From Stagnimonas sp. (GTDB lineage: Bacteria > Pseudomonadota > Gammaproteobacteria > Nevskiales > Nevskiaceae): a DNA stretch of 64,000 nucleotides. The notes beneath the pieces were generated by a model that was not told where the DNA came from, searched no databases, and saw only the letters and a list, made by a program, of their open reading frames with translations. Below, piece after piece: positions 6,093 to 62,295 of this stretch (the first letter of the stretch is position 1; each line of letters begins with the position of its first letter). The stretch spans positions 62,001-126,000 of the forward strand of contig JAUSQI010000063.1 in assembly GCA_030652575.1 (NCBI GenBank). The letters are read 5' to 3'. A program made the position numbers and the translations under genes.

Positions 6093-6101
6093 CGCACGTC
6101 T

Positions 6102-34452: not shown

Positions 34453-37071
34453 ATGTTTAACTTTCGCCAATGGCTGCGGCCAGGACGCCGCTCAAAAGAA
34501 GCGCTAATCCTTGACGCGGCTGCTGCTGAGTTGCAGTCAGCAGAGATCGTTGAACCTGCCGGCAGCGCGTCAGCAGGCATGCACCCGATTTGTACCGCCG
34601 CCCTCGCCGGCGAAACGGATGCGGCGCTGATCAAGCACTTTGGCGGCAGCCCACGCGAGCCGTTGACGCCGACGATGCGGCAACTTGCCACCCAAGCTGC
34701 CATCAGCCTGCTCGATGCCGGTTCGCCATTGGCGGCACTGCGGCTGTTTCGCCTCGGCCATACCGATGAGGGAGTGCGGCGGAGGCTTTGCCAACTTGCC
34801 ATGCAAAGCGCACAGGCGGGTGATGCCGCATTGCTGCGCGACGCCATTGCCAGCTACTGCCTTCTGACGGGGCAGATCAAGCTGCCGCTGTGCAGCGCCA
34901 CCAACGCGCTCGAAGACGAAAACCGCGAGGTGCTACCCACCCTGATCGCACGCGCGTGCTGGGAGGGCATCGAGTCTTGGCTGTGCTGGCAACCGCAAGC
35001 GGCGCAGCAGCTGGATTGGCAAATCGCCTTGCCTGCCGCCGCCGCTGCTTTTCAGGCAGGGCATGCCCTTGCCGCCATCGGTCTGGCTGGCGTGCATCTG
35101 CCTCAATGGCTGGGCGATGCCGAGACCGGCAAAGGCCTGCATGCACGCTTGCAAGAGCAGCTGCGCTCGGCCCTGAACCAAGAGGATGTGCTTGCAGTCT
35201 GCGTGTTGTCACACGAGCTGCGACGCTGGGGTGGCAGCGAGGCGGGACTGGCGGATGAAAGCTGGCGGCTGATCGACCGGCTGGGTTCGGTGGAACAGGC
35301 CCGGCTACTGCTGGGTACGATCGCCATCGACGAAACGCGACTGCCGGTTGCGCGGGCCGCCGCAGAGAAACTGCTGCAGCGTTACATCCGCCGCAGCCGA
35401 TGGCTTGAAGTGGAGCAGTTGCTGGGCGGCGCTGTCTTGTCCGACGTGCAGAGATACAAGCTGCGCAAGCAGTACCTGAGCCGCCTGCTGGAGCTGCGTG
35501 AGATCGACCTGGCAGCCCCGCTGCTGCAAAGCCTGAACACGCATGACCCGGAGCAGCGGTTTTTTGCACTGTGGCTGGTCGCGTTGCGCGGCGAGCTGAG
35601 TGAGGCCGAGGCACTGTTCGCGCAGCTCTCTGCCGATGATCCGGTCTGGTACCGCGCCGCACGCCTGCTCTACGAGTTTCACAATGCCCGTCGGGACTTT
35701 GCGGCGTCCTGTCGCTATGGGCGCATCCTGCTGGATCGGCGCAGTGCGCCTGAGCCCAGCCGCATGCTGCACATTGCCCAGATGGCGAGCTACGTGTGGG
35801 GCGAAGAAGCGCTGATGGCCGAGGCAATCAAAGCCGGGTTCGACGCCGCCGAGGCACTCGAAGCCGCCGGGATCAGTGATGAACCCGGCTGGGATGCACT
35901 GCTGAACTTCCATTTGCGGACGTTCGCCTTCGACAAGGCCTGGACTCTGCTGCTGCAGGTAAAAGCCCTGAAGCGTTTCGACGTCAGCGACGACGAGGCC
36001 TTGCTGATGGACATCCAGCAGACCTTTGCGCCGGTGAAGTGGGCTTTGGATGAAGCCGCTGCCGCCGTGCGCACCCTCGCCACTGGCGATACCTCATTGA
36101 TGCGAGCCGCGCGGCAACCCGAGGAGTGCGCGTTTCACCTGTATTCCGGCATGTTCGCCGCCCGTGTCGAGTTCGAAGAGGTACGCCACTACCAGCGCAA
36201 GACGTTCTCTCTGGTGCTGCAGGCTCTATTGGCCAAGGGCATACGCCCCGTCATCGTGCCGCAGTTCGCGCTCAACGAGCAGGTGGTGTTGCCGGGCACA
36301 CACCTCTCGGTTTCGTACCACACCATCGACTCGCGCCCCAACTGCATCCACATCAAGGAGGCCGACCTGCCCCACCTGATGAACATCGACCCGTACGGCT
36401 ATGCCGGCTGGTCGAGCCTCGCGCTGCGGCCCAAAGAATGGATCGACGCGGAGCTGGAGAAGATTTCGGATGAGGAGGCCAATGCCTTCTTCGAGGCCGA
36501 GCACGCCCGCATCGTGGGCGGCAACCTTTCGAAGTATCGACAGCCCGAGCAGGATGCGAGCTGGCAGCCACCCAAACCCTATGTGTTTCTGGCACTGCAA
36601 ACGCGGTGGGACAAGGTACAGGAGCTGGCCTATGTCGACATGCTGGACATGCTGCGGATTGTGGTCAACCGCTTCGAGGACACAGGAATCAATGTGGTGA
36701 TCAAGCGACATCCGGCTTGTCAGGATCATGGCGTGGCGAACACCTTGCGAGAGCTTGCCATGCGGTCACACGTGCAGATTTCTACCGCATCCGTTCACAC
36801 GCTGATGGCACACGCCGAGGCCGTGATGATTGCCAACTCAGGCGTGGGAGCAGAGGCACTCGCCCACATGAAGCCGGTCTATCTGTTCGGCCGCGCCGAA
36901 TACCAGTACGCATGCCATACCGTGCGTACCGCACAAGAGTTTGCAGAAAAAACTGCGTGCCTTGCCTTGCCTTTGCCAGCGCAGAACCTGCGACGGTTCT
37001 ACTGCTTTTACAAGGCAAAAACACTTCAGGACATCAGCAGACAGTCTGTAGACCTAACGTGCTGCATGTAG
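34453..37071 (+). CDS. Large GT-B glycosyltransferase with helical-repeat N-terminus (capsule synthesis type)
   Basis: Encodes 872 residues. The first about 560 are helical, Ala/Leu-rich and TPR-like. The C-terminal part (about 570-850) is related to capsule polysaccharide synthesis proteins (PF05159 type): ALQTRWDKVQ, VVIKRHPACQD and ANSGVGAEALAHMKPVYLFGRAEYQ are its core motifs, matching the HP and GxGxEAL motifs of KpsC/KpsS-like enzymes. It may transfer Kdo or another sugar; a role equal to KpsS cannot be shown. It is the last plus-strand gene before the convergent kds operon. No terminator is evident between them. Confidence 0.7.
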   Translation: MFNFRQWLRPGRRSKEALILDAAAAELQSAEIVEPAGSASAGMHPICTAALAGETDAALIKHFGGSPREPLTPTMRQLATQAAISLLDAGSPLAALRLFRLGHTDEGVRRRLCQLAMQSAQAGDAALLRDAIASYCLLTGQIKLPLCSATNALEDENREVLPTLIARACWEGIESWLCWQPQAAQQLDWQIALPAAAAAFQAGHALAAIGLAGVHLPQWLGDAETGKGLHARLQEQLRSALNQEDVLAVCVLSHELRRWGGSEAGLADESWRLIDRLGSVEQARLLLGTIAIDETRLPVARAAAEKLLQRYIRRSRWLEVEQLLGGAVLSDVQRYKLRKQYLSRLLELREIDLAAPLLQSLNTHDPEQRFFALWLVALRGELSEAEALFAQLSADDPVWYRAARLLYEFHNARRDFAASCRYGRILLDRRSAPEPSRMLHIAQMASYVWGEEALMAEAIKAGFDAAEALEAAGISDEPGWDALLNFHLRTFAFDKAWTLLLQVKALKRFDVSDDEALLMDIQQTFAPVKWALDEAAAAVRTLATGDTSLMRAARQPEECAFHLYSGMFAARVEFEEVRHYQRKTFSLVLQALLAKGIRPVIVPQFALNEQVVLPGTHLSVSYHTIDSRPNCIHIKEADLPHLMNIDPYGYAGWSSLALRPKEWIDAELEKISDEEANAFFEAEHARIVGGNLSKYRQPEQDASWQPPKPYVFLALQTRWDKVQELAYVDMLDMLRIVVNRFEDTGINVVIKRHPACQDHGVANTLRELAMRSHVQISTASVHTLMAHAEAVMIANSGVGAEALAHMKPVYLFGRAEYQYACHTVRTAQEFAEKTACLALPLPAQNLRRFYCFYKAKTLQDISRQSVDLTCCM

Positions 37072-37096: not shown

Positions 37097-38053
37097 CTAC
37101 TTTTTGAAGATGCCGACGATCTCCTCGGCCTGGCTTACCAGCAGTGACGTGATGTTTCTCTGGTCCATCAGCGCAATGGCATCCGAGACGCGTGTACCGG
37201 CGGGCACCACGATGGGGTCCTTGGACATCAGGTAACCCGCCGTCTTCTCGAACACCTGTTTTTCGTACTTATCCAGCGCACGGCGAATGTCACCGTCCGT
37301 GATCAGCCCCAGCCCGGCCTCGCGGCGCACCACCACCAGACCAAGCATGCCGCTGGTCATGATGTCGATGACCTTCGTGAAGCTGTCGGTCTCATGCACA
37401 AACGGTAGATTCTTCTTCGTCATCTCGTCTTCCACCTTGCGCAGCAATCTGCGCCCCAGACTGCCGCCGGGATGAAAACGGGCGAAGTGCTCCGGCTGGA
37501 AGTCGCGCGCCTTCATCAACACCACCGCAAGCGCATCGCCCATTGCCAGCGTAGTGGTGGTGCTGGATGTCGGCGCCAGCTGCAGCGGGCAAGCCTCTTC
37601 ATCGACACCGACGTTGAGGTGGCAATGCGAGGCTTTGGCCAGAGTGGACTTCGGGTTGCCGGTCATGGCGATCACGAAGTTACCGTTGTCGTGCAGGAAG
37701 CTGATCAGCTTGAGCACTTCCTCCGTTTCACCGGAATTGGAGATCGCAATGAAGACATCCGACGGCGTGACCATGCCGAGATCGCCGTGGTAAGCCTCGC
37801 CCGGATGCATGAACAAGCTGGGGGTGCCGGTGCTGGCCAGCGTCGCCGTGATCTTGCGCGCGATGATGCCGGACTTGCCCATGCCGCACAGAATCACGCG
37901 GCCGGTGGATTTCAGGATGCCTTCGATGGCGTCGTAAAAGCTCTTGTCCAGCCTGAGGCCGGCTGCCTGCACGGCACGTGCTTCGATCTCGAAAACCTTT
38001 TGCCCGGCGGCGATGAAATCTGCCTGGCGGGATGCCTCTGCGGTCACGCTCAT
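37097..38053 (-). CDS. kdsD: Arabinose-5-phosphate isomerase
   Basis: Encodes 318 residues: SIS domain (about 35-170) with GMGKSGIIARKITATLASTGTPS, and AISNSGETEE, followed by two CBS domains (about 205-318). It converts ribulose-5-phosphate to arabinose-5-phosphate, the first step to Kdo. The start at 38053 overlaps the kdsB stop (ATGA), although the frame is open further upstream. KpsF is the capsule-locus form of the same enzyme, and its position with kdsB, kdsA and a KpsC-like gene fits that role. Confidence 0.95.
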   Translation of the reverse strand: MSVTAEASRQADFIAAGQKVFEIEARAVQAAGLRLDKSFYDAIEGILKSTGRVILCGMGKSGIIARKITATLASTGTPSLFMHPGEAYHGDLGMVTPSDVFIAISNSGETEEVLKLISFLHDNGNFVIAMTGNPKSTLAKASHCHLNVGVDEEACPLQLAPTSSTTTTLAMGDALAVVLMKARDFQPEHFARFHPGGSLGRRLLRKVEDEMTKKNLPFVHETDSFTKVIDIMTSGMLGLVVVRREAGLGLITDGDIRRALDKYEKQVFEKTAGYLMSKDPIVVPAGTRVSDAIALMDQRNITSLLVSQAEEIVGIFKK

Positions 38054-38814
38054 GCCTGCTGCTCCATTTCTTGAATCAATCGGGTCACGCGCTCGACATC
38101 CGCGGGGGTATCCACCCCATGCGGTGGGCAGGCTGACCATTGCAATACGCCGATGCGGATACCCAGCCACATCGCGCGCAACTGCTCGAGCTTCTCCATC
38201 TGCTCCAGCATGCACAACGGCGTGGCAACCACGCGCTTGAGCGCCCCCACGCGGTAGCCATAGATGCCGATATGGCGCTGGTAGTCCGCCAAGGGCCAAT
38301 CGGACTGCGGCTTGTCACGGCAATACGGGATGGTGGACCGCGAAAACATCAGCGCGATGCCGGCTTGGTCCGTGACGAGCTTGACGACGTTGGCATTAAA
38401 AAGTTGCTCGACATCCTCGACCGGTGCGCTGATGGTGACCATCTGCAACTCGGGCTTGCCTTGGCAGTAGGCCAGGAATGCCTGCAGCAGATCGACCGGC
38501 ACCAGCGGCTCGTCGCCTTGTACATTGATGACCAGATCTCCATCGGCCAACCCGCGCAGGGCGGCCACTTCGGCCACACGATCGGTACCGGATTCGTGCT
38601 TGGGGTCGGTCATGGCGAACGGAATGTCGATCTCGCGCAGATGGCTGGCGATGCGCTCGTCATCCGTTGCCACCACGATATCCGCCGTAGGCAATGCCGA
38701 CTGCACCCGCGCGTAAACGCGCGCGATCATCGACCTCCCAGCGAGATCCACCAACGGTTTGCCCGGTAGCCGGCTGGAGGCATAACGAGCCGGAATCACC
38801 ACACATGTTTTCAA
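38050..38814 (-). CDS. kdsB: 3-deoxy-manno-octulosonate cytidylyltransferase
   Basis: Encodes 254 residues from a TTG start. N-terminal VVIPARYASSRLPGKPLVD is the CTP-binding signature, VVATDDERI and NVQGDEPLV are the other conserved stretches, with HIGIYGYR near the centre. It makes CMP-Kdo, the donor for Kdo transferases. Coupled to kdsD by ATGA overlap; KpsU is the capsule form of this enzyme. Confidence 0.95.
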   Translation of the reverse strand: MKTCVVIPARYASSRLPGKPLVDLAGRSMIARVYARVQSALPTADIVVATDDERIASHLREIDIPFAMTDPKHESGTDRVAEVAALRGLADGDLVINVQGDEPLVPVDLLQAFLAYCQGKPELQMVTISAPVEDVEQLFNANVVKLVTDQAGIALMFSRSTIPYCRDKPQSDWPLADYQRHIGIYGYRVGALKRVVATPLCMLEQMEKLEQLRAMWLGIRIGVLQWSACPPHGVDTPADVERVTRLIQEMEQQA

Positions 38815-38854
38815 GACGTTTCTCGCTTCGTGTCGGGCTAGTCGGCGCGGCGAC

Positions 38855-39733
<879 letters not shown>

Positions 39734-39757
39734 TTATAAATGACAATTTAATAACAC

Positions 39758-41158: not shown

Positions 41159-41237
41159 AAAGTAACTCCAATCACATTTTATTAAACAATATAATTAGCT
41201 TCAATACGCGGCCGTCCCACAACAGGAGCCCGCTTTC

Positions 41238-43339: not shown

Positions 43340-43349
43340 TCAAAGACCC

Positions 43350-44444
43350 CTAGTTTGGACGCATGGATTGAGCCTGCTGATGGACCTTGGCATCTCTGAG
43401 ATCGGCTTCTGCCATCTCGACCACCAGCTCCTGGAAGCTAGTGCGAGGAACCCAGCCAAGTTTCTCTTTGGCCTTGGTCGGGTCACCTAGCAAAGTTTCG
43501 ACCTCCGTAGGTCGGAAATACTTTGCATCTACTGCAACAATCGCTTGACCAATTCTTGGACGCAGACCTTCGATGGTGGTATTTGCGAGAATGCCTCGCT
43601 CCTCAGCCCCCTCGCCTTGCCAATCGAAAGTCATGCCTAGCACCTCTCCAACTCTTTCGATGAACTCGCGGACGGAGTGCTGCTCGCCAGTAGCGATAAC
43701 ATAATCTTCAGCGGTTTCCTGCTGCATCATTAGCCATTGCATTTCGACATAATCTCGTGCATGACCCCAATCACGCCGAGCGCTCAAGTTGCCAAGATAC
43801 AACATAGACTGAGTGCCTATGGCGATTCGCGCCAGAGCTCGCGTAATTTTACGAGTTACGAACGTTTCGCCGCGCATGGGAGATTCGTGATTAAAGAGAA
43901 TGCCATTGCAGGCGTAAATTCCATATGCCTCACGATAGTTAACCGTGATCCAATAGGCATACATTTTCGCTACGGCATATGGACTTCGCGGATAAAAAGG
44001 CGTGCTTTCGCGCTGCGGAATCTCCTGAACTAGGCCATAAAGTTCGGACGTAGAAGCTTGGTAAAACCGCGTCTTTTTAGATAATCCCAAGATTCGTATG
44101 GCTTCCAAGATACGTAGAACTCCAACTGCATCGGAGTTGGCAGTGTATTCGGGCTCCTCAAAACTTACGCCGACATGACTTTGCGCAGCAAGGTTATATA
44201 TCTCATCAGGTTGAACCTGTTGGATGATGCGGATAAGAGACGATGAGTCGGTCATGTCACCGTGGTGTAAAAAGAACGGCAATGTACCAGCAGAGCTGGC
44301 GTCAATAAGATGGTCAATTCGACCCGTATTGAAAAGTGAAGTGCGGCGCTTCACCCCGTGCACTTCGTAGCCTTTCTCCAGAAGTAATGTTGCCAGATAA
44401 GCTCCATCTTGACCGGTTACACCTGTAATAAGTGCTTTTTTCAT
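43350..44444 (-). CDS. gmd: GDP-mannose 4,6-dehydratase
   Basis: Encodes 364 residues of the SDR family: NAD(P)-binding [15 protein letters not shown], substrate and catalytic stretch [32 protein letters not shown] (Tyr-x3-Lys), [20 protein letters not shown] and [21 protein letters not shown]. It makes GDP-4-keto-6-deoxymannose, the shared precursor of GDP-fucose, colitose, perosamine and rhamnose. AGGA precedes the ATG by about six bases. It is the first gene of the three-gene sugar unit on the minus strand. Confidence 0.96.
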
Positions 44445-45959: not shown

Positions 45960-46652
45960 TTATAGCGCTCGAAATCCATCTGATTTTATAATAAATTTCG
46001 CGGGCGCTAATTTTTTTAAGTAGCCTGCCACCCTCAATGCATCTATTTCTGAAATTGATTTGCTAATTTCTTTTATTTGAAGGTCAGGAAACTCAATTTT
46101 ATCAATTTGGTATTCCCACCATTTCACTCGTAGCAAATCAGCAATAGTCAAATCATCAAATCTAAATCTTATTATTCTCGCTGGTATACCACCTACTATT
46201 GCATATGGCGGCACATCTCTAACCACAACGGATCCGGCCCCAATTACAGCGCCATCTCCGATCACAATACCGCGCCTAATTGTGACGTTACGTCCAATCC
46301 AGCAATCGTTACCAACAATAACGGGGGCATCATTTCCGTCATACTTTTCTTGACGCAGCCACTTATTCAGATCAGGATCACCTTTAAAAGGACCAACGTT
46401 GTTAAAAGAAAATAAATGCGTTGAAATTCTATCCAGCGGGTGATTTGTCGGACCCAAAAAACATCCAGGGGCTATTGAGCAGAATCGTCCAATATCAGCA
46501 TTATAAATCTCACTTCCTCTGCCTATGTATGAAAGGAAGCCGATTGAGCACTTCCCATGAACAGTAGCTGCAATATTACATGGCTCCTCAGCTGTTATTT
46601 CCCCACGAATTAGTTTCTCAAAATATTTAATTCTAATTTTATTGTCTAACAA
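45960..46652 (-). CDS. CatB-related hexapeptide O-acetyltransferase
   Basis: Encodes 230 residues from the TTG at 46652, four bases past the stop of the giant gene, with GGTGAG just upstream; a TTG at 46688 would overlap that gene by 32 bases. Left-handed beta-helix hexapeptide repeats (VIVGNDCWIGRNVTIRRGIVIGDG, AVIGAGSVVVRDVPP) end with YAIVGGIPARIIRFRF, characteristic of CatB/LbH_XAT acyltransferases. It would put an acetyl group from acetyl-CoA on a sugar in the cytoplasm. It is directly downstream of the KpsC-like gene on the same strand. Confidence 0.82.
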   Translation of the reverse strand: MLDNKIRIKYFEKLIRGEITAEEPCNIAATVHGKCSIGFLSYIGRGSEIYNADIGRFCSIAPGCFLGPTNHPLDRISTHLFSFNNVGPFKGDPDLNKWLRQEKYDGNDAPVIVGNDCWIGRNVTIRRGIVIGDGAVIGAGSVVVRDVPPYAIVGGIPARIIRFRFDDLTIADLLRVKWWEYQIDKIEFPDLQIKEISKSISEIDALRVAGYLKKLAPAKFIIKSDGFRAL

Positions 46653-46656
46653 GCGC

Positions 46657-49600
46657 TCACCATTTTCTTTTTTTATCAATGTAATCAACCAATTCTTCTA
46701 CTTCAACGGTTTCATTTTTCTCTGGATGAAAATAACGACTGGACTCAATATATGAGTAATGGAAAACATCTTCAATTTTCCTTTTCCTCGTTCTCCCGTT
46801 CACAGCCACTTTATCTTGGGTGATTCCCCAGCCCGCATAAAAAGGAGCTCCATAGCAATGTACGATCTTGCCGGCCATCAAGGCTTCAAACCCCATGCCT
46901 GAAGTCACCACATAGACCTCATCAACCAATTCAAACAGAGAGTAGGGATTGACATCGAAGTTAATAAGAAAAAGATTGTTGATGTATTTTCCAGCGCCAC
47001 CCATGTAGAGGCGTTCGTTACTGTAGTAGCTGGATTTTCCCCCTTTAATCGCATCAGGATGCTGCTTGATCATAATATCGCAGTCCGCGTGCTCTCTCAA
47101 AACATCGTTCAACATGCGCTCGTAGGTCTTTTCATCTGCAAGGCCTGAAGCCACAGACTGATCGCCGAATCGCTGGTCGACCAATAGCACTTTCTTTCTA
47201 CCCGGCGTGCCGATATTGAGCGGGATATTGGGGGCATGGTTATATTTGGAGACGCGCGTCTCGACTATTTTCTGGATGGCTTTTCTACTGCGTGCCAACT
47301 CAGCCTTGGTTAGAGCGGGGCCATCTTCCAAAAGCCGTTGAAGTCTCGAAGGCTTGGTGGCGTCGTAGTAAGACGTGGTGTCGTCCATGATGATCGACAG
47401 CCCAGGCTCGCCGGATAAACCAATGTCCAGAGAGCGGATGAAGCCGTCCTCAATGATCAGCAAGGGTTTGCCCAATGCACGCTGCACAGCCGCCTGCTTG
47501 ATTTTGCCGACGTTGGGGGTGATGCCCCACTGGATGAACACATCGACAGACGCCAATTCCTTGAGACTTTCGAGCCCCTTGCTGCTGACCACGCGCCTGC
47601 GCGCACGGATCATGGGCAGCAAATACTTCTGGACGTTGTTCCACACGTGTTCGCTCGATGGGATGGCGATGACGTCCAAGGCATCGGTGCGAGAGAAGAT
47701 CCTGTCGATCGCTCTGGGCCTCAGGGTGAGGCTGCTTGGATTTGCGGCGAACTGCTTGAGGTAATCGGCGATTCTGCGACAAGCCTGGCCGTCGAAGGCG
47801 CCCGTCGAGAACATCTGTGCGGCCCAATTGATGCCCTCTACGGACGGCTGCCACTCGCCAGCCAGAAATTGGTCCATCTGCACAGCCAACTCTTCAGCGT
47901 TGCGTACAGCGGGAATGCCGGCAGATTCCCAGATCTGCGTGAAGTCCGTGTATTTCGTCGAGAGCGGAATACGCCCCATCAGCATGCCTTCGAAAAGCAT
48001 CGTGCTGTTCACGGAAGCGACGATGTCGGAATGGAAAAGTGCTTCTTCGGCACTCACGAGGTAGCAAAGCGCGTCATCCACAGCCGCGCGGCTGGACTGC
48101 GCGATGCGCTCCTGTAGTGGCTTGCCGAGAATATTGTCCTTGGAGGGCGGCAATCGAACGATCAATTGCAGGTTCTTGGCATCCGCACAATCCAGAAGGT
48201 CTGCAATGGCCTTGCGCTGCGACTCACGGGCCGTTTTGACATCCAGCTGCGAGTCCAGTGGCTGTGATGCGAATAGGATGATCTTCAGAGCCGGATCTAG
48301 CCCGAACAGCCGGCAGAACTGCTGCCGCGTCAACTCGGGCTGATAGTTGAAGTAGCTATCGAACTTCGGCGCGCCAACCGCGATGAAGCGCTCTGCGGGG
48401 TAGCCTCTTTCGACAAAAATGTCCTTCTGCAGCTGGCCCCAACCGAGGATCACATCCGCAACAGGCACCGAGGCATGCGCGGTGATGTCCCAATAGTATT
48501 TTTCTCTGTCGACGAAGACGGATTCGTGCGGAATGAGAATGCGCGGAATCTCCAGGTCTTCACAGACGCCCGCGATGAGTCGCATGACGGGCGCCCAGTC
48601 GAACGTGAAGACAATGCCTTTGATCTTCCCGCGAAGGGAGACCAGCCGCCGCAGAATCATCTTGCGATAGGTGTGCGGGTTCTCCCTCGCGAACCGCAGC
48701 ACTTCAGAGCGCACCTTGTCCAGGTTTTTCACGAAGTCGAGAGGTGCTAAGACGTAATCTTCTCCGCCACCGATCTTCGCGATCAGCTTGTTGCCATGTT
48801 CGGCAATCCAGGGGATGTACAGCAGAACCGGCTTGTCGCTACTGAGCGCGGCGGTCAGCTCGGCGCCAGGCAAGCCGTTGAACCACTCGGGAATCGGGCC
48901 TTCGGGCAGTGTCTGCGTAGCAGCAACCGCGATCTTCGCAAGAATTGCGTCGTCGTCCTGCTTGGGTGCTGGCATCGACGCCTTGCTTTGCAGCAAGCGC
49001 GGCACCATTGTTTCGATCGTGCTCTGCACCTTGTACAGCGGATCGACATACACGGGGTAGAGAATGTAGGCAGCCGCGAATACCTGCTCCACACTCAGTT
49101 GACGTTGCCGCCTTTCGGGCGGCTGGCGGTCGTCGGAAATTCCCCATCCGGCGTAGAAAGGCGACCCCAAGGTCGTGACCTTGATGTTGCGCAGCAGGGC
49201 TTCGAAACCACCCAGCGAACTGATCGTGTAAACATGATCAACCGTTTCGAGTGCCTGCGAGATCGGCAGGTCCTGCGCCAGCACATCGCAAAGATGGCGG
49301 ACTTTGTCGGGATTGGAAGCAGTAGGCCGGGCCTTACTCATCACTTCAGGGTGTGGCTTGAAGATGATTTGAGCGCCCGGATTCTCCATTGCGGCGATCA
49401 TCACCACATCGTTATTGCTGTAGTGACGCGGATTAGCCAACTTTACTGAAGGCGCATATTCCGATTGGCCCAAAACCAGCACACGGGGACGGTTTTTTAC
49501 GCCATAGACAACTTGAACATCTGAAACGCGGGATGAGTGATTGAATTTGCTGACTCCTTTCTCGACCAGCAACTCGATTGACAGCCGGGCGCGCTGCATC

Positions 49601-52293
49601 AACTCGATGTCGGCATCAAAATCGTATTGCGCGATTATGTTCTCGAGATCGGATGCCGTCGAACTGTCAAAAAATGGCACGGCACCATCGAGAACCAACG
49701 AATAGGGCGGCGTATTTGCTTGGGGCAACTCGACTGAGCGAATGAAGCCCTCACCCAGATAAAAATTTTTTCGCTTGCTCGATCTTATGTATTGCCTTAA
49801 GTGAAGGGGAATAGCGCCTTGGCAAGTGATGAATTCAGAACTCCGATTCTGGTCGATGCCTTTCTTGAATTTCTGGGAAAACTCTTTGGCATTCGTGGTG
49901 AGGGGAATATGTATGAATCTTCTGTTGGGAAACCACGAGCTCATCAGTGATTTGTACGGAATCTCACCAATGAGATAAGTAACCGTCTGTTTCTGAGTCA
50001 ATTTCGACTCAGCTGTCGGTTCAGGCAGTTGCAATTTGGTGGGCTGCATCGAAGTCAGCATCCGCTGCAGCATCAGCGCAGGGTTTTCACTGACTACTTT
50101 GTATAAAGGATCAACATAGATGGGCGCTGCCAAACAACAGCCCACGAACAACTCGTCGATGCTCAATGCGCGGCCGCGTGCTAATGCCTGCCGATCTTCC
50201 GTCAGACCCCATCCTGCGTAAAACGGCGTGCCGAACACTGTGACCGGTTTACCGCGCAGTAGCGCTTCGAAGCCCCCGATGTGGCTGATGGTGTAGACGC
50301 GGTCGCTGCCTTCAATTTGCGCGCTGATTGGCTCTGCGAGCGAGAGGATCGAGCAATAGCTGGCAACTTGGGACGGATCGGACAGCGCCGCTCTTTTCTT
50401 CTTCAGATTGGCAATATCCACCCTGTAGACGATCTCGGCACCTGGATGCTCCATGCGCGCCATCATGACCAGATCGTTGCTGGTAAACCGTTTCGGCCCT
50501 TGTGAATTGACGGCGGGGTGATCTTCGGGCTGGCCAATGACCAGAATCCGCTGAGGTCGGTTTGGGTCCATTTCGGCCGCGTGTGCCGCCGAGTTTCGAT
50601 CCAGAATTTCCAAGACGCCCTTGCGGAGTACATCGGCTTGCGCCATCAGGGCTTCGTCGTGCACGAAATCGCCTTCATCCAGCGTTTCCATGAGATGGGT
50701 TCTGCCATCACTCTCTCGGCCCGTGACGTCTCTCTCCACATTCCAGGCGGCTGGCGTGAAGGCGCCTTTACCGATACCCAGTTGGTGCACCACACCGGGT
50801 GTGACCGTCCGTATTTTGCCGCCTGCCTGCTTGATGAGGTGACTGATCTGCTCAGGCAACCGCCCGCCCCACACGTAAACGTCGACCCCCGGCACACAGA
50901 CCTTGCCTGCCCATGCTTTCTTGAAGACCGCCGATGTCACCGACCTGTCGATGACATGGATGTCGGCGTCTTCAAACAAGGACTGCAGTACGTCGTAAGA
51001 ATAGGGGGCGCCAAAGAAAACGACAGTTTTCACCAAGGGGGCCGTCGCCTCCTCCTCGGCACCGTGATCCTCGACGCTGCTTGGCTCACTCTGACCCAAT
51101 CTTTCAATGACTTCGCGCAGCGTCATTGCAGCACCGGTAGCGGGCTCGAAATAGCTGGCGTATTTCAGATAGGCAGCAGCAAACAGCTGAGTCAGCGTCA
51201 GCACCCGCGAGCGTCGTGCCACAGCTTGGCGGCTGTCTGTAAGCCCCCAGCCCGAGTAGAACGGCGCTCCCAAGGTCGTGACCGGGATGCCACGGATCAA
51301 GGCCTCGAAGCCACCCAAGGAGCTAATGGTGTAGACCCGGTCGACACCCGTCAGCGTGTCATCGAACGACATGGGCTGACGGATGATCAGGGCAAGATCG
51401 GCAACATCGTCGGGCTTGGACAATTCGGCGCGCTTGCCGGCCAGGACGTCTGGATGCACCTTGTAAATGATCTGTGCGTCCGGATTCTCTGCAGCCGCCA
51501 GTCGTACAACATCGTTATTCGTGATGCGCTTATCGCAGCCGTATACAACGGACTGGTCATCCTCGACTTGGCCGATGACGAGTATGCGCGCGCGGTTCTT
51601 GGCGCCGTAGAGCTTCTCGGCCAGCCGGGTGGGAGACTCGTTGTATTTGGTGACCCTACGCGTGCAGATGAGCTGAAGACATTCCTCCGCCTCCCGCATC
51701 AGTTCCGGATCGGAATCGAAATCGTAGGTCGCCAACAAGGTTTCGAGATCGGAGGGCTTTCGGGCATCGAAATAGATGCCCGTCCTGTCGATGCAGATCG
51801 AATACGGGAGAACGTGATTCGCACCGAGACCCTGTGACCGGACGAATCCATCCTCCATCCGCATGATCTCGATGCCATGCTCCTGAGCATAGCTTTCGAG
51901 ATCTTCCGGCTGGAACAGGCCCCATACGATGAAGACGCAGCCTTTCGACTCCTTGATCCGACGGTCGTGGCGAGCAACGGTATCTCGGTAGGCGATGTAT
52001 TTGAACTCGAACTCTGGAAAGCAGCTTTGCAGAAAAGCCCGCTTCCAAGGAGCGATATTGAAGGCCCAGGCCACTCGTATCTGTTCTGCCGTGCTTTCAT
52101 CGCGCTCCGGTGCTACGCCAGATAAGGAAACTGATTCCCACAGCCCGCCTACAACTTCTGGTTCAGTCAATTTCCCTGTCTCCGCTTCAGCACGGGGGAG
52201 CGCGCCGTTCTGCTCCTCTGCACCTGATGGCTCGTCGCCTTGGCCCAAGGTCTGCTTCGTCGACATGGACGCGTTACCGGCAAATTGACTCAT
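46657..52293 (-). CDS. Giant multi-module capsule glycosyltransferase: four KpsC-like modules plus one GT-B domain
   Basis: Encodes 1,878 residues from ATG 52293 (GGGAT upstream; the frame is open further to a GTG at 52368). Four units related to KpsC beta-Kdo transferase modules are visible: M1 75-400 (EDGFVRS 147-153, KVHPDV 278-283, SSLGGFEAL), M2 420-745, M3 770-1100 (GEGFIRS 847-853, KPHPEV 979-984), and M4 1535-1878 (EDGFIRS 1615-1621, KQHPDA 1743-1748). All share PFY(A/S)GWG. M2 has lost both signatures (TPGV and YRVD). Between M3 and M4, about 1150-1515, is a different GT-B-like domain with IPHESVFVD, GAPKFD and NSTMLFEGMLMG. KpsC proper has two modules and about 670 residues. The kds genes close by support CMP-Kdo use. 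Confidence 0.85.
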   Translation of the reverse strand: MSQFAGNASMSTKQTLGQGDEPSGAEEQNGALPRAEAETGKLTEPEVVGGLWESVSLSGVAPERDESTAEQIRVAWAFNIAPWKRAFLQSCFPEFEFKYIAYRDTVARHDRRIKESKGCVFIVWGLFQPEDLESYAQEHGIEIMRMEDGFVRSQGLGANHVLPYSICIDRTGIYFDARKPSDLETLLATYDFDSDPELMREAEECLQLICTRRVTKYNESPTRLAEKLYGAKNRARILVIGQVEDDQSVVYGCDKRITNNDVVRLAAAENPDAQIIYKVHPDVLAGKRAELSKPDDVADLALIIRQPMSFDDTLTGVDRVYTISSLGGFEALIRGIPVTTLGAPFYSGWGLTDSRQAVARRSRVLTLTQLFAAAYLKYASYFEPATGAAMTLREVIERLGQSEPSSVEDHGAEEEATAPLVKTVVFFGAPYSYDVLQSLFEDADIHVIDRSVTSAVFKKAWAGKVCVPGVDVYVWGGRLPEQISHLIKQAGGKIRTVTPGVVHQLGIGKGAFTPAAWNVERDVTGRESDGRTHLMETLDEGDFVHDEALMAQADVLRKGVLEILDRNSAAHAAEMDPNRPQRILVIGQPEDHPAVNSQGPKRFTSNDLVMMARMEHPGAEIVYRVDIANLKKKRAALSDPSQVASYCSILSLAEPISAQIEGSDRVYTISHIGGFEALLRGKPVTVFGTPFYAGWGLTEDRQALARGRALSIDELFVGCCLAAPIYVDPLYKVVSENPALMLQRMLTSMQPTKLQLPEPTAESKLTQKQTVTYLIGEIPYKSLMSSWFPNRRFIHIPLTTNAKEFSQKFKKGIDQNRSSEFITCQGAIPLHLRQYIRSSKRKNFYLGEGFIRSVELPQANTPPYSLVLDGAVPFFDSSTASDLENIIAQYDFDADIELMQRARLSIELLVEKGVSKFNHSSRVSDVQVVYGVKNRPRVLVLGQSEYAPSVKLANPRHYSNNDVVMIAAMENPGAQIIFKPHPEVMSKARPTASNPDKVRHLCDVLAQDLPISQALETVDHVYTISSLGGFEALLRNIKVTTLGSPFYAGWGISDDRQPPERRQRQLSVEQVFAAAYILYPVYVDPLYKVQSTIETMVPRLLQSKASMPAPKQDDDAILAKIAVAATQTLPEGPIPEWFNGLPGAELTAALSSDKPVLLYIPWIAEHGNKLIAKIGGGEDYVLAPLDFVKNLDKVRSEVLRFARENPHTYRKMILRRLVSLRGKIKGIVFTFDWAPVMRLIAGVCEDLEIPRILIPHESVFVDREKYYWDITAHASVPVADVILGWGQLQKDIFVERGYPAERFIAVGAPKFDSYFNYQPELTRQQFCRLFGLDPALKIILFASQPLDSQLDVKTARESQRKAIADLLDCADAKNLQLIVRLPPSKDNILGKPLQERIAQSSRAAVDDALCYLVSAEEALFHSDIVASVNSTMLFEGMLMGRIPLSTKYTDFTQIWESAGIPAVRNAEELAVQMDQFLAGEWQPSVEGINWAAQMFSTGAFDGQACRRIADYLKQFAANPSSLTLRPRAIDRIFSRTDALDVIAIPSSEHVWNNVQKYLLPMIRARRRVVSSKGLESLKELASVDVFIQWGITPNVGKIKQAAVQRALGKPLLIIEDGFIRSLDIGLSGEPGLSIIMDDTTSYYDATKPSRLQRLLEDGPALTKAELARSRKAIQKIVETRVSKYNHAPNIPLNIGTPGRKKVLLVDQRFGDQSVASGLADEKTYERMLNDVLREHADCDIMIKQHPDAIKGGKSSYYSNERLYMGGAGKYINNLFLINFDVNPYSLFELVDEVYVVTSGMGFEALMAGKIVHCYGAPFYAGWGITQDKVAVNGRTRKRKIEDVFHYSYIESSRYFHPEKNETVEVEELVDYIDKKRKW

Positions 52294-52570
52294 GAGATCC
52301 CTAAAACTGACATTTGAAATGTATTTTCCCAACCGAGAGGCCGCTCTTTCGAGAGCCACTCTCAGCACATTTTAGACGCGATGCTTCAAGCATCCGGTCA
52401 TGCATCCCCCGACCAATCCCGGCGGCATGTGCTCCCAGTCGATTCGGGCACAAAATGTTGCACGTTCCAAGCCAAATACATCTGTGCAAAAACCATGAAT
52501 CTGGGCAAATGTGATGCAAGCCCAACCAGATGCTTTAATCGGCTATGCCCGAATTCAAGCTCACTTGGCA

Positions 52571-53836: not shown

Positions 53837-55021
53837 CTAGTTGCCGAGTGACGACGCGCCACGAAGGTCGAACACCACGCCAGTGAACTGGCGGATCAGC
53901 GAGCCGATCTTCGCCGCGTTAACACTGCGGGTGTTGGACACATACAACATGTCGCCGTCGCGCATTTCCATTCCCTTGGCAATGAAAAAGCCCTGCGGCT
54001 CGCTCAAGTCCACCTGGTAGATGATGGGCACGGTGCCGTTGGGCATGCGCGCTGCGGTGTCGGCAAGCGCCCCGAGCGCATCGGCGTTCTCGAAGCGGAA
54101 TACGAAGACGGCCGACGGGTCGGCCTTGTCGTCTGACAACCCGCCCGCGCGTGCCAAGGTCTGCGCCAGATTGACGCTGGCCTGCTGCAGGGGGATCTCC
54201 GAAGGCCGCAGCGCCGCGCCGAAGACCGTGACCGACCGAGGACGGTAGGTCAGCTGGATCTGATCCCCCGGGAACACATAGGCGTTTTCCTCCATGCTGT
54301 CGATCACACTTTGCAGCTGCACCGTCTTGGTCTGGTCGCCGCGCGTCAGTTGCAGCAGCACATCCTGCGGCTCATGCATGGGCCCGCCGGCCAGATTGAT
54401 GACATCCCGCACGCGCTCGCCGGCCAGGCTCAAGGGCGCGCGTCCCGGCAGCTTGATGTCACCGCCGATCGTGACGGTGTTGAAGACGTTCTGCACGACC
54501 GAGACCACCGCTTGGGGCTGGATCGCCTTGCCTTGCAGATTCTTCTCAATCTCTTTTTGCACCTCGGTCGGCGTCATGCCGACCACTTTCAGGCTGCCGG
54601 CAAACGGCACGGTGATTTCACCATCCCGGTTCAAAACCAGCCTGGGAAACTGCCCCACCGAGCTGCCGCTCGAACCACTGCCGCCACCGGCACCGGCGCC
54701 AAAAAGGCCATTGCTGCCCGGCTCGTAGATCTGGATGGCCAGCACATCGCCGATGCCAATGGTGTCGGACACCGGCTTGTCGGCCCCCAGCGATGAGAGC
54801 GTATCCACCGACACCGCCTTGAGCTTTTCGATGATCTGCCGGTCGGCGCGCACGATGCTGAGCGGAATCGCCGGCTCGGTCTTCTCGGGCGACTCCGGGA
54901 AATCGCCCGGCCCAGGGCCGGCCCTGGGAATGGCACAGCCGCCGATACAAAGAGTGAGACCCATCAGCAGCGCTGTGGGCAGCGCGCCGAATAGCGATGG
55001 TTTCGTGGGTAACGACATCAT
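53837..55021 (-). CDS. Polysaccharide export outer-membrane lipoprotein (Wza/KpsD type)
   Basis: Encodes 394 residues with a lipoprotein signal (LTLCIGGC, lipid Cys at residue 29). The Poly_export domain has SDTIGIGDVLAIQIYEPG and DGEITVPFAGSLKVVGMTPTE, followed by SLBB-like repeats (TVTIGGDIKLPGRAPLS, VTVFGAALRPSEIPL). Such proteins form the outer-membrane channel for capsule or O-antigen export, here pairing with the KpsE-like protein of the ABC system. A Gly/Ser-rich stretch near residue 110 is unusual. It sits between two glycosyltransferase genes. Confidence 0.92.
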   Translation of the reverse strand: MMSLPTKPSLFGALPTALLMGLTLCIGGCAIPRAGPGPGDFPESPEKTEPAIPLSIVRADRQIIEKLKAVSVDTLSSLGADKPVSDTIGIGDVLAIQIYEPGSNGLFGAGAGGGSGSSGSSVGQFPRLVLNRDGEITVPFAGSLKVVGMTPTEVQKEIEKNLQGKAIQPQAVVSVVQNVFNTVTIGGDIKLPGRAPLSLAGERVRDVINLAGGPMHEPQDVLLQLTRGDQTKTVQLQSVIDSMEENAYVFPGDQIQLTYRPRSVTVFGAALRPSEIPLQQASVNLAQTLARAGGLSDDKADPSAVFVFRFENADALGALADTAARMPNGTVPIIYQVDLSEPQGFFIAKGMEMRDGDMLYVSNTRSVNAAKIGSLIRQFTGVVFDLRGASSLGN

Positions 55022-57997: not shown

Positions 57998-58346
57998 GGG
58001 TAATGAGTTCCAATCTAAAATGACATTGTGCGGCAGCGACAATCAGCAAGTCGCCGCTTCCGTTTGTAGGTATGCCCAGTCCCGATTGTAGATGCTGCAC
58101 TCCACGCAGGCCCAGTGGAAAACCAAGTCTCGATATGTCCCAGTGCACAAAAGTCTTTGGCTTGGGTGAAGTTGGCATTTTCAGGTCGGCTTTGCGTTTG
58201 CAGATACCAGTCCACTCCAATCGACATATGCTTGAAACCAAAGCGGGTGCAATGCTTGCAGCACTGAACCCAAGGCTTCAATTTTCACATTACAGTTGCG
58301 GCATTCAGAGCTTCGTCATCGCAACTATCAGTTCAGGCCCGACACG
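57998..58346. other. Divergent intergenic region between FkbM and kpsM-type genes
   Basis: About 350 bases of mixed composition separate two operons read outward. It must hold promoters for both, but no convincing -10/-35 pair was identified. A five-base inverted repeat TTGCG/CGCAA with a long spacer (about 58296-58323) is present. No gene with a ribosome-binding site is seen. Confidence 0.4.
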
Positions 58347-60371
58347 TTGAACCCCACCCATAAAAGGATTCACGAGCTTCGGCGGTTACTGGCCGCAAAC
58401 CCCGATGATCGCGTCGCGTTGGCCGAATTGATTGGTGCGCTGGCCGACATACGCCGCGCGTCTCAGGTGCTCGAACTGCTGCCCCGGCTTGAGCCTTTTA
58501 CCGTGCTGGATGTGGAGTTGCTGCGCCGGGTCGTCAGCATGCTGACCGCAGGCGCGCATCTCGAAAAAGGCCTGGAAATTGCCGAGAGCCTCATTGCACT
58601 GACACCAGACGATACCGATCTTCTGATGCAGCTCGGCTCGGATTTGATGGCCTCGAAAAAGTTTGTAGCGGCCGCGGAGCTGCTCGGCAGGGTCATCGAG
58701 CTTGAACCCAGGAACTCCGTGGCATTGCGATTCAGGAGTTCCGCGCGTTTGCAGGCCGGCGAAGTCGAGCTGGCAATGGCCGATGCGGTGCTTTGTGTCG
58801 ATCTCGCACCGGAGAATTCGGAGTTCAGAATCCATCTCGGCGGCCTGCTGCTGCAAGCCAAACGGTTCAACGAAGCACAGCCGCACCTCGAAAAAGCGAT
58901 TGCCATCGACCCCACCAACGCGCATGCACACAATGTGCTGAGCAGCGTGTTTGTCTCCATGGGCCTTGTTGGCCGCGCCATTGATGAGGCGGCGGCGGCC
59001 GTCAAGCTGGAACCCAGCCTGGTTTCTGCCCAAATACATCTTGGCAATCTGCTCACCATGCACGGGCGCTACCGGCAGGCGATCGATGTGCTGCGACTGT
59101 CGCTGCGAGCAGACCCCGAGAACCTGACGGCACGGCGGGTTCTGAGTGGCGCGCTGGCTGCCGCCGGCAATCTCTCAGAAGCTATCGATGAGGCTTTGGA
59201 GCTTGTAAGACTCGCGCCTGAGACCCCGGAATATCAAATGCATGCCGGCGGCCTCATGGTCAGCGCCGAGCGGATGGCAGAAGGCATTGTGCTGCTGCAA
59301 AAAGCCTGCGCGATGGCCCCTGCCATTGGTCATGGCTGGCGCACGCTCAGTGGGGCAGAGCTGGAACTTGGCCATTTCGACGACGCTGAAGCCCATGCGC
59401 TCAAAGCTCTGGAATGTGAGCCCGACAACGCCGATTACAAATCGCATCTGAAAAATCTGCGTCGCAAGCGGGATACCGATATCACCCAAGCCCTGAGCAT
59501 TGCGATTGCCGATATTCAATCGACAACGCAATACACGCCGCCCTTGAATGTGCCACGCCGCCTCGACGCCGACCGCAAGTCGCACCCGATGCTTGAGGCA
59601 TTCAGGACACAGCGCCGGGTCGTCATGGCACTGGTGCTGCGGGATATCCGGGCGGCTTACGCAGGCTCGCGTTTGGGTTACATCTGGGCGTTGATCGAAC
59701 CCATGACCCATCTCCTGACTTTGGGCATTGTCTTCAAGATACTGAATCACAGCACGCCGCCCATCGGGGACAACCTATACCTTTTCTATTTGACCGGGAT
59801 CCTGCCGTTCTTGATGTTTATTCACACGGTGGGCCACATGATGGATTCCATTCCCGGGAACCATAATTTATTGCAGCTGCCGCTGATCAAGCCGATGGAT
59901 TTATTGGTTTCCCAAAGCCTGATGTCGCTGTGGCGCGAAACAACGGTTGTCATTATTTCGTTCTTCATTTTTTTCTGCATTATCGGCATCAAGGCCATTC
60001 CGACCGAGCCAGTGCGTTGCGTACAAGCGCTTTTCTGTGTCTGGATTGCGGCAACCGGCTTTGGAGTGTTGAGCTCGATGGTCGCATCGGCCTTTCCAAC
60101 ATGGGAAAAAATATGGCCCGTCATCACGCGCCTGATGTATTTCGCATCCGGCATTTTTTATATCCCACAAAATATGCCGGAGTGGGTCCGCGATTATCTG
60201 ATCTGGAATCCAGTCCTGCAGGGCATTGAATGGTTTAGAAATGGCTTCTTTAGAAACTATTCCCCCCATTGGCTGGACACTTATTACGTGCTTGCCTTTG
60301 GCATCAGCTGCTTATTGATCGGCTTGGCACTGGAAAGAATCCAGCATCGCCGCATGACCTACGAATTATGA
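58347..60371 (+). CDS. kpsM: TPR domain fused to KpsM/Wzm-type ABC-2 permease
   Basis: Encodes about 674 residues from the TTG at 58347 (another TTG at 58296 gives 691); no ATG is available near the N-terminus. Residues about 20-390 are TPR repeats (LIALTPDDTDLLMQLGSDLM, AIAIDPTNAHAHNVLSSVF and others). From about 415 comes a normal ABC-2 permease with six helices: LVLRDIRAAYAGSRLGYIWALIEP, a first helix with THLLTLGIVFKIL, later FASGIFYIPQNMPEWVRDY and GIEWFRNGFF. KpsM proteins are usually about 260 residues with no TPR. The stop overlaps the kpsT start (ATGA). With KpsT it would move the finished glycan across the inner membrane. Confidence 0.88.
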   Translation: MNPTHKRIHELRRLLAANPDDRVALAELIGALADIRRASQVLELLPRLEPFTVLDVELLRRVVSMLTAGAHLEKGLEIAESLIALTPDDTDLLMQLGSDLMASKKFVAAAELLGRVIELEPRNSVALRFRSSARLQAGEVELAMADAVLCVDLAPENSEFRIHLGGLLLQAKRFNEAQPHLEKAIAIDPTNAHAHNVLSSVFVSMGLVGRAIDEAAAAVKLEPSLVSAQIHLGNLLTMHGRYRQAIDVLRLSLRADPENLTARRVLSGALAAAGNLSEAIDEALELVRLAPETPEYQMHAGGLMVSAERMAEGIVLLQKACAMAPAIGHGWRTLSGAELELGHFDDAEAHALKALECEPDNADYKSHLKNLRRKRDTDITQALSIAIADIQSTTQYTPPLNVPRRLDADRKSHPMLEAFRTQRRVVMALVLRDIRAAYAGSRLGYIWALIEPMTHLLTLGIVFKILNHSTPPIGDNLYLFYLTGILPFLMFIHTVGHMMDSIPGNHNLLQLPLIKPMDLLVSQSLMSLWRETTVVIISFFIFFCIIGIKAIPTEPVRCVQALFCVWIAATGFGVLSSMVASAFPTWEKIWPVITRLMYFASGIFYIPQNMPEWVRDYLIWNPVLQGIEWFRNGFFRNYSPHWLDTYYVLAFGISCLLIGLALERIQHRRMTYEL

Positions 60372-61018
60372 TCACGCTGCAGAATGTGACTAAATCCTAC
60401 CCCGCTGGGGATGGACGCAAAGTGGTTCTCGATAATGTGTCGGCTGTGTTCCCCGATGGCACAAACATCGGGATTCTGGGCCGCAACGGCACTGGCAAAT
60501 CAACCATGATCCGGCTGCTTTCTGGCGCGGAACTGCCGAATAAAGGACACATCAAGCGTCAAGGACGCGTGTCCTTCCCTATGGGTTTTGGCGGCACCTT
60601 CGCCCACCGCCTTTCGGCGCGCGAAAATATCGTGTTTCTGGCGCGCGTCTACGGCATGCCGATTCATCAAAGCGTGGAGTTCGTGCAGGAGTTTGCCGAA
60701 GTCGGCCATTATTTCGACATGCCGATGCATACCTATTCTTCGGGCATGCGGGCGCGGCTGATGTTTGCCGCGAGCTTGGCGATCGATTTCGATTTTTACC
60801 TGATCGACGAAATCACGGAGGTCGGGGACAGCCGCTTTCGCGAAAAAGCCGTCATGGCCTTTCGCGAACGCATTCGCAAATCGAGCATCATTCTCGTCTC
60901 GCACAACTACCACACGATGCGCGACATCTGCCAGGTCGGTGCCATCCTCGGCAATGGGCGACTCGATTTTTACCGCAGCCTTGAAGAGGCGATCACTGTT
61001 TATGAGACGATGCCGTAA
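60368..61018 (+). CDS. kpsT: Capsule/O-antigen ABC transporter ATP-binding protein
   Basis: Encodes 216 residues: Walker A GRNGTGKST, signature YSSGMRARLMFA (in place of LSGGQ, as in KpsT), Walker B FYLIDEI and the switch His in LVSHNYH. The length fits KpsT without the carbohydrate-binding C-terminal domain seen in some Wzt. It is coupled to the permease by ATGA and to the next gene by TAATG. It energises export of the polysaccharide. Confidence 0.95.
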   Translation: MITLQNVTKSYPAGDGRKVVLDNVSAVFPDGTNIGILGRNGTGKSTMIRLLSGAELPNKGHIKRQGRVSFPMGFGGTFAHRLSARENIVFLARVYGMPIHQSVEFVQEFAEVGHYFDMPMHTYSSGMRARLMFAASLAIDFDFYLIDEITEVGDSRFREKAVMAFRERIRKSSIILVSHNYHTMRDICQVGAILGNGRLDFYRSLEEAITVYETMP

Positions 61019-62295
61019 TGAGCGCCGCCCCCATCAAGACTGAAAAAGTGCCGAAAGAGATTGTTGCGCGTAAAGAGGATAAGAAAGCTGGCCAGGTGCC
61101 TGTCGAAAGTAATTCTGGGGGCCCGATTGCCCGCAGAGTCCAGGTAATCAAGGACTGGACCTGGAAAGCGCTCGCCGATACCGAAGAGCCCGACCGGCTG
61201 CATTGGGGTCGTGTGATGCTCGTGTTGGTCTGTCTGCTGCCGACCTTGGCCGCGGGTATCTATTACGGCTTCTTCGCTGCCGACCAGTACGAAGTGGAGA
61301 TGCGCTTCAACGTGGTGCCGCTGGATAAATCCCTACGCGACGCCAGTTCGATGCTGGATGGCGGTGGCGGCAAGTCGGCGGCTTCGGCCTTTGCGCTGAA
61401 CTCTTTTGTAGTGACGCAGTACATCGCCAGCCGTTCGATGGTCGATCAGATCAATAAGGAGATCGACATCCGCAAGATGTTCTCGACGGAAAAGGCCGAC
61501 GTGATCGAGCGTCTGGACCCGGAAGCCTCCATCGAAAAACTCGTGAAGTACTGGCGCAAGAAGGTCGACGCCTATTTCGAATTGACCAACGGCTCCGTGA
61601 TCGTGACCGTGCAGGCGTTCACGCCGGAGGATGCGCTGCTGCTGTCGCAGACCATCCTGAAACTGTCGGAACAAGCGGTCAACGAGCTGTCGGCGCGCGC
61701 GCGCGCGCAGGTCATGGGGTTCGCCGAGGCGCAGGTGACCAAGGCCGGCAACCACTTGCTCGAAGAACAGAAGGAGCTGCTCGCCTTCCGCCAGAAAGAG
61801 AAGGTGTTCGACCCGGTGCAGGATGCCAGTGCAAACACTTCTTCGGTCGCAAGCCTGCGTCAGGGCTTGGCGCAGATGAAGGGCGAAGCGGCGGCACTAT
61901 CCAAATACATGAGCGAAGCCTCGCCCAACCTCGAACTGTTGCGGGCCAAGATCAAGGCGTCGGAAGACCAGCTGCGCAGCGTTCAGGCCTCATTGCCCGC
62001 CACCGGTGGCAGCAGCGGCGGCTCCGCCGCCACGATGTCTACGTATGAAACCCTGAAAGGTCAGGTGGCCATCGCGCAGACGGCTTACCAGACCGCACTC
62101 GCGTCATTGGTGTCTGCCAGTCGCTCCGCCGATGGCGAAACGATTTATCTCTCGACTTTCATCCCGCCCTCTCTGCCCATCGAGTCCACCAAGCCGAAGC
62201 GCTTGAAGATCGTCTTCCTGGTGTTCATCTCGACGTTCGCTTTTTGGGCGATTGGCACTTTGATTGCGTACTCAATAGGCGACCATCGCACTTAA
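61018..62295 (+). CDS. kpsE: Capsule export inner-membrane protein (KpsE/BexC-like, PCP-3)
   Basis: Encodes 425 residues with a Lys-rich N-terminal tail, TM1 at about 66-87 (GRVMLVLVCLLPTLAAGIYY), a long periplasmic part with coiled-coil stretches (AQVTKAGNHLLEEQKELLAFRQKE, LELLRAKIKASEDQLRSVQ) and TM2 at about 396-418. This is the polysaccharide co-polymerase type 3 layout that links the ABC transporter to the outer-membrane lipoprotein. The start overlaps the kpsT stop (TAATG). Confidence 0.93.
   Translation: MSAAPIKTEKVPKEIVARKEDKKAGQVPVESNSGGPIARRVQVIKDWTWKALADTEEPDRLHWGRVMLVLVCLLPTLAAGIYYGFFAADQYEVEMRFNVVPLDKSLRDASSMLDGGGGKSAASAFALNSFVVTQYIASRSMVDQINKEIDIRKMFSTEKADVIERLDPEASIEKLVKYWRKKVDAYFELTNGSVIVTVQAFTPEDALLLSQTILKLSEQAVNELSARARAQVMGFAEAQVTKAGNHLLEEQKELLAFRQKEKVFDPVQDASANTSSVASLRQGLAQMKGEAAALSKYMSEASPNLELLRAKIKASEDQLRSVQASLPATGGSSGGSAATMSTYETLKGQVAIAQTAYQTALASLVSASRSADGETIYLSTFIPPSLPIESTKPKRLKIVFLVFISTFAFWAIGTLIAYSIGDHRT

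Follow-up and report, generated by a model that had tools for sequence, protein, structure and literature searches.

A single protein of 1,878 aa (P0001), encoded on the minus strand at positions 46657..52293 of the window (the whole 64,000-nucleotide stretch of DNA that was analyzed), is proposed to represent a fused capsule synthase in which two KpsC-like modules, M1 and M4, and a GT-B domain are active, and which most likely makes a Kdo-containing repeat; we place the probability of this reading at approximately 55%. Two further KpsC-like modules, M2 and M3, are retained within the same frame and, judging by the residues at their catalytic positions, look like catalytically dead copies.

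The reading frame runs uninterrupted from an ATG at position 52293, which is preceded at Shine-Dalgarno distance by an AGGGA run, to a stop codon at position 46657, while a GTG upstream at position 52368 represents an alternative start which would yield a protein of 1,903 aa. A search of the genome itself returned the five-module gene without stops, and the GC pattern by codon position is steady across all modules, whose individual GC contents (0.50 to 0.58) differ in a manner that could reflect a patchwork history. As the assembly is a draft of 177 contigs, an assembly join or a frameshift might be suspected of having created so long a frame, a possibility which had been raised in the first-pass annotation. 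However, because M1, M2, and M3 share just 31 to 40% pairwise identity, the length of the frame is not attributed to assembly duplication; in addition, the codon-position composition is consistent throughout, and the M3-GT-M4 portion aligns end to end with intact proteins of Pseudomonas. An artifactual origin was therefore rejected, its probability being considered negligible, and the long single frame withstood scrutiny.

A Pfam scan of the protein identified five PF05159 stretches (E value of 2.3e-121) and no other family, while NCBIfam placed a BFO_1060-type glycosyltransferase match at residues 1240 to 1515. These outputs, together with a confident GT-B model, bear out the five-module anatomy with a separate GT-B domain that had been described previously, the motifs quoted at that time being found where they had been placed. 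From the N to the C terminus, the protein thus comprises three C-like modules, an unrelated GT-B domain, and one N-like module, and each of the four KpsC-like (GT107) modules, M1, M2, M3, and M4, is related to KpsC over the whole module, as indicated by PF05159, phmmer, profile, and tree analyses.

M4 (residues 1530 to 1878; positions 46660..47706, minus strand) is assigned to the KpsC-N type by phmmer, alignment, and tree, its residues 1583 to 1876 matching the E. coli KpsC-N structure 6mgc with an E value of 4e-56. M1 (residues 71 to 411; positions 51061..52083, minus strand) matches the KpsC-C structure 6mgd over residues 78 to 399 in phmmer, and its alignment is that of a KpsC-like module; when queried alone, however, it scores nearly equally against the KpsC-N (6mgb/6mgc) and KpsC-C structures, and its designation as C-type is consequently based on its placement in the tree, in a clade with the Pseudomonas C modules (support of 100/99). 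Alignment, tree, and profile likewise identify M3 (residues 775 to 1112; positions 48958..49971, minus strand) as KpsC-C-type. M2 (residues 412 to 765; positions 49999..51060, minus strand) is classified as a degenerate KpsC-C-type module by alignment and by a score of 163 bits against the C-module profile, to which its N-terminal half alone scores 23 bits (0.8 bits for the best shuffled copy). The AlphaFold model of M2 is weak (pLDDT of 55.9 and pTM of 0.44), and the first PDB match of this low-confidence model is KpsC-C 6mgd (E value of 5.5e-14). The claim regarding its fold accordingly rests on the sequence profile, by which M2 is predicted to be a still recognizable C-type module along its length.

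The catalytic machinery of KpsC comprises a general base, Glu66 of the EDGF motif, a nucleophile, Asp160 of the QxxxD motif, and a histidine which protonates the leaving group; the D160A derivative of E. coli KpsC-N forms neither adduct nor product (PMC10148158). When these positions were compared in an alignment of 58 modules, the glutamate, aspartate, and histidine were found to be kept together in 54, the four exceptions being M2, M3, a Pseudomonas copy in which the motif reads DEGF, and a degenerate module in a KpsC paralogue from Pseudomonas. Both M1 (E147, D246, and H280) and M4 (E1615, D1711, and H1745) are intact, in agreement with the first-pass annotation, which had described their catalytic motifs as retained and had suggested a noncatalytic, scaffold-like role for M2. 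The latter view is substantiated by the replacement of all three residues in M2, where T498, H592, and D626 occupy the positions of the base, nucleophile, and histidine. M3 had been judged by its EDGF and HPD regions only and had been credited with keeping its motif; in fact, G847 and A947 stand in place of the base and nucleophile, with the histidine (H981) retained, and the number of degenerate modules has to be corrected from one to two. The nucleophile motif of M3 reads QSEYA in place of QxxxD, the segment QSEYAPS aligning without gaps to QVEDDQS of M1, and the change is identical to the D160A substitution that inactivates E. coli KpsC.

The GFEAL and GWG motifs are retained in all four KpsC-like modules, and this, along with the histidine still present in M3, would be consistent with four active Kdo transferases which produce a Kdo oligomer of greater length or variety. 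Such activity is deemed highly improbable given that M2 is devoid of base, nucleophile, and histidine, that M3 is devoid of base and nucleophile, and that the D160A substitution in E. coli KpsC-N abolishes both adduct and product (PMC10148158). With the base and nucleophile lost from M2 and M3, the working set is predicted to consist of M1, the GT-B domain, and M4.

The GT-B domain (residues 1131 to 1525; positions 47719..48903, minus strand) yielded a confident AlphaFold model (pLDDT of 84.9 and pTM of 0.82), in which GT-B fold matches with Z scores of 18 to 22 (Foldseek/VIA) extend along residues 19 to 389 of the 389 residues modeled. In sequence searches, no solved relative of the domain was retrieved, the only matches being short ones to designed proteins. 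Against NF046086, which represents the BFO_1060 glycosyltransferase, the domain scores 85 bits (E value of 4e-24) where the curated cutoff is 200 bits, and it is thus best described as a predicted relative of the BFO_1060 family and not, by that cutoff, as a member of it. The top fold matches are nonhydrolyzing UDP-GlcNAc 2-epimerases, with Z scores of about 22, and the domain might on that account be regarded as an epimerase instead of a glycosyltransferase. The epimerase fold is itself GT-B, however, and TagF, TarL, and other GT-B transferases follow at Z scores of 18 to 20; furthermore, NCBIfam places the domain near the BFO_1060 and TIGR04396 kinds of glycosyltransferases, and the Pfam scan gives PF05159 alone for the protein. 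An epimerase function is, therefore, considered improbable.

When 84,980 species genomes were scanned with six exact peptide patterns, an approach which may have missed more distant fusions, three loci with a C-GT-N fusion were revealed, all of them in Pseudomonas. The encoded proteins (L028, L029, and L030) are 1,144 to 1,180 aa in length, P. cremoricolorata carries a second copy of 1,274 aa (L054), and identity to the M3-GT-M4 portion is 51 to 54%. The catalytic residues are intact in three of these four copies, the C module being intact in L028, L030, and the 1,144-aa copy of L029, while the 1,274-aa copy has DEGF in place of EDGF at the general base; the same active set as that predicted for the 1,878-aa protein is thus encoded in its relatives. 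A search of genomes for the same domain order had been suggested earlier; the C-GT-N order is present in three Pseudomonas genomes, but no second copy of the five-module form was found in the genomes searched. Among 399 Pseudomonas genomes, the GT domain was convincingly detected in three, a fourth giving a weak, partial match. The fusion was not found in 60 close relatives, elsewhere in the order (85 genomes searched, that of the window included), in 321 genomes of the class, or, with the whole protein as the query, in a 398-genome sample of the phylum. The phages searched yielded none, and an IMG/VR search for the GT domain returned 40 pattern matches, none of which was a relative. A second KpsC-like protein of P. 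fluorescens PS691 (L051, positions 5996-8086, minus strand) has a C module which lacks the nucleophile and the HPD region. Three relatives of the same family (G020, G023, and G027; loci L009, L010, and L012) possess stand-alone C-type modules of 370 to 397 aa; a KpsS-like protein is present in these genomes, and an N module was not detected.

Among plasmids, a single record, pShin-11 of Shinella sp. HZN7, matches the GT domain. It encodes an intact C protein (47% identity to M1), a stand-alone GT (39% identity to the GT domain), and RS34270, a protein of 644 aa (L068, positions 37843-39777, minus strand), the intact N module of which shares 53% identity with M4 and is preceded by a C remnant (20 bits; shuffled maximum of 3.5) and half a GT, an arrangement interpreted as an eroded C-GT-N fusion. 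Maximum-likelihood analysis grouped M1, M2, and M3 with the C modules of the Pseudomonas fusions (100/99); within this clade, M2 and M3 pair (100/95), M2 being placed on a very long branch (1.7 to 1.8 changes per column). M4 falls within KpsC-N, in a clade with the N modules of the Pseudomonas fusions (100/100). Both clades persist after addition of the Shinella modules, and the C-GT-N fusion family is thereby defined by C and N clades of its own and a common GT domain. From this anatomy, the fusion looks old, and the C position beside the GT domain looks to have been lost twice, through a dead full-length module in the window protein and through reduction to a remnant in Shinella; in both cases, another intact C module accompanies the lost position.

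The surroundings of the gene agree in part with a group 2 (ABC-exported, Kdo-linked) capsule locus. Genes for the KdsD/KpsF arabinose-5-phosphate isomerase (37097..38299), the CMP-Kdo synthetase KdsB (38050..38814), and the Kdo-8-phosphate synthase KdsA (38855..39709) are located on the minus strand, as is that of a KpsD/VexA-like polysaccharide export protein (53837..55021), while KpsM-like, KpsT-like, and KpsE-like ABC exporter genes occupy positions 58296..62295 of the plus strand. A KpsM, KpsT, KpsE, and KpsD-type exporter is thus present, with family matches which lie below the curated cutoffs. The KpsM-like permease (58296-60371, plus strand) is fused to a long N-terminal TPR region. Because the Kds functions and the exporter are encoded in the cluster and no PF02348 protein, and hence no CMP-sugar synthetase, other than KdsB was found in the genome, M1 and M4 are likely to use CMP-Kdo as their donor; a Pse/Leg donor was considered and is not favored for the latter reason. 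A gene for a hexapeptide (CatB/Vat-like) O-acetyltransferase (45960..46688, minus strand) overlaps the stop codon of the five-module gene. Hexapeptide proteins also adjoin the three-module genes of Pseudomonas, and CatB-like ones are encoded near the Shinella parts.

Canonical KpsC and KpsS were not found in the window genome, which is 95% complete, the only matches being the 1,878-aa protein itself and a weak match to an 872-aa protein (34453..37071, plus strand), the C-terminal part of which is weakly KpsS-like (QTRWD and KRHP) and which represents a candidate initiating transferase. A relative of the 872-aa protein from the same family is encoded by a 1,423-aa frame (34% identity). Several other glycosyltransferases are encoded in the cluster, so that the capsule repeat here probably contains more than Kdo and a single additional sugar, and the 1,878-aa protein need not be the sole polymerase. 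Positions 39758-44444 (minus strand) harbor gmd, an Fcl-like epimerase gene, and a DegT-family gene whose PLP lysine region reads SSFFSHHISTMEGG, with histidine in place of the lysine; this gene content suggests GDP-colitose synthesis as a predicted function. An adjacent 466-aa open reading frame (GDGLGQRL and HLRAGD) resembles a fucosyl- or colitosyltransferase. The GC content of the 40- to 48-kb portion of the window is 44 to 45%, compared with about 65% in the first half.

In the mechanism proposed here, M1 would perform a KpsC-C-type beta-Kdo transferase step, the GT-B domain would add one other sugar, and M4 would perform a KpsC-N-type beta-Kdo transferase step, the three taking turns on a lipid-linked chain at the inner membrane to produce a Kdo-containing unit, which would most likely be the capsule repeat. 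The neighboring hexapeptide enzyme would then O-acetylate this repeat, and the adjacent KpsMTED-type ABC system would export the polymer. M2 and M3, as extra C-type copies without the double-displacement machinery, would act as structural or ligand-binding parts, if anything. The donor of the GT-B domain, the linkages, the alternation of the modules, the formation of a polymer as opposed to a linker, and any role of M2 and M3 are elements of this scheme that we infer.

Because canonical KpsC and KpsS were not found in the window genome, synthesis of the linker might have to fall to M1 and M4. In that case, they would take the place of KpsC in assembling the lipid-proximal Kdo oligomer, to which the GT-B domain, as a fused transition transferase, would add the first non-Kdo sugar; transition transferases are known (PMC11666461). 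The KpsC-C and KpsC-N types of M1 and M4 and the presence of the weakly KpsS-like protein beside KdsD are consistent with such a function. However, the three Pseudomonas genomes possess the fusion on top of KpsS and canonical KpsC, located in the same contig region in two of them, and the C and N clades of the fusion lie apart from the canonical KpsC modules, the N clade being long-branched, which suggests other acceptors or linkages. A linker-building function is thus regarded as possible, if rather unlikely. The earlier proposal, in which one enzyme would complete the lipid-proximal Kdo oligomer and also attach a first repeat sugar, consequently keeps some plausibility, since canonical KpsC and KpsS were not found in the window genome, but is less well supported than repeat synthesis, since the closest homologs, those of Pseudomonas, coexist with both. 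In Pseudomonas S37, the fusion is located, together with GSCFA, hexapeptide, and beta-helix proteins, between kpsSC/kdsDBA (the kds genes being recognized by their sequence starts and not by family search) and the kps exporter, and no glycosyltransferase besides the fusion was found in this serotype-specific region. The simplest reading is that the C-GT-N fusion builds the capsule repeat, and it is this coexistence with KpsS and KpsC, and its position as the sole glycosyltransferase of the S37 region, that lead us to favor repeat synthesis for the 1,878-aa protein.

As regards M2 and M3, the retention of two full-length modules in an open frame hints at some role. We tentatively consider, as an unlikely option, that they represent pseudo-glycosyltransferases which hold the growing Kdo-containing chain or CMP-Kdo, or which set the spacing and chain length between the C- and N-type active sites. 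Alternatively, they may be neutral, decaying duplicates without a role, of which Shinella, with its C part reduced to a remnant, would represent a later stage, an explanation compatible with M1, the GT-B domain, and M4 making either repeat or linker. The very long branch of M2 and the C remnant and half GT of RS34270 accord with decay; set against it are the absence of stops or frame breaks in either full-length module and the 43 to 54% identity which their C-terminal halves still share with active Pseudomonas C modules. Decay is a real possibility, though on balance it is not expected.

GT107 modules, GT-B domains, and multimodule Kdo-containing polymerases are already known. M1 and M4 share family, fold, and catalytic residues with KpsC (GT107) of E. 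coli and Thermosulfurimonas dismutans, and the CMP-Kdo pathway and ABC exporter of KpsC systems are likewise present in the window cluster; KpsC, however, comprises two modules in about 690 aa, N (beta-2,4) followed by C (beta-2,7), an order which does not apply to the C, C, C, GT-B, N arrangement with two dead modules described here. The Pseudomonas fusions share the C, GT, N order with M3-GT-M4 and have three modules in place of five. KrkA of E. coli K13, which possesses Kdo and ribose transferase activities and is solely responsible for the K13 repeat, is likewise one protein for Kdo and a second sugar in a group 2 capsule repeat (PMC12887879), but its Kdo transferase belongs to a different family, GT140, of negligible sequence similarity, and a ribofuranosyltransferase takes the place of the BFO_1060-type GT-B domain. 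WbbB of Raoultella is also a large multimodule transferase with a beta-Kdo module (GT99 plus two further GT modules), although its GT99 module caps an O antigen and it lacks KpsC-type modules. GT107/GT99-like domains are present in E. coli serotype regions, one example being the GT29-GT107 protein of E. coli K6, a serotype-specific transferase of two domains (PMC13171606); it pairs a single GT107 module with GT29, and its putative product is poly-Kdo. A literature search, the coverage of which excluded many subscription journals, retrieved no paper on the C-GT-N fusion or on a five-module form with two dead modules.

The means by which Kdo is incorporated into capsule repeats are just beginning to be understood, and the known enzymes are few; the rare C-GT-N fusion family suggests a route by which one protein makes Kdo-containing polymers. 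The retention in frame, beside active modules, of a module that has lost its nucleophile (M3) and of a fully degenerate one (M2) constitutes a natural experiment, which bears on whether dead transferase modules hold or measure the chain in capsule synthases. If the tentative role considered above for M2 and M3 were true, the family would show retaining Kdo transferases turned into noncatalytic glycan-handling modules.
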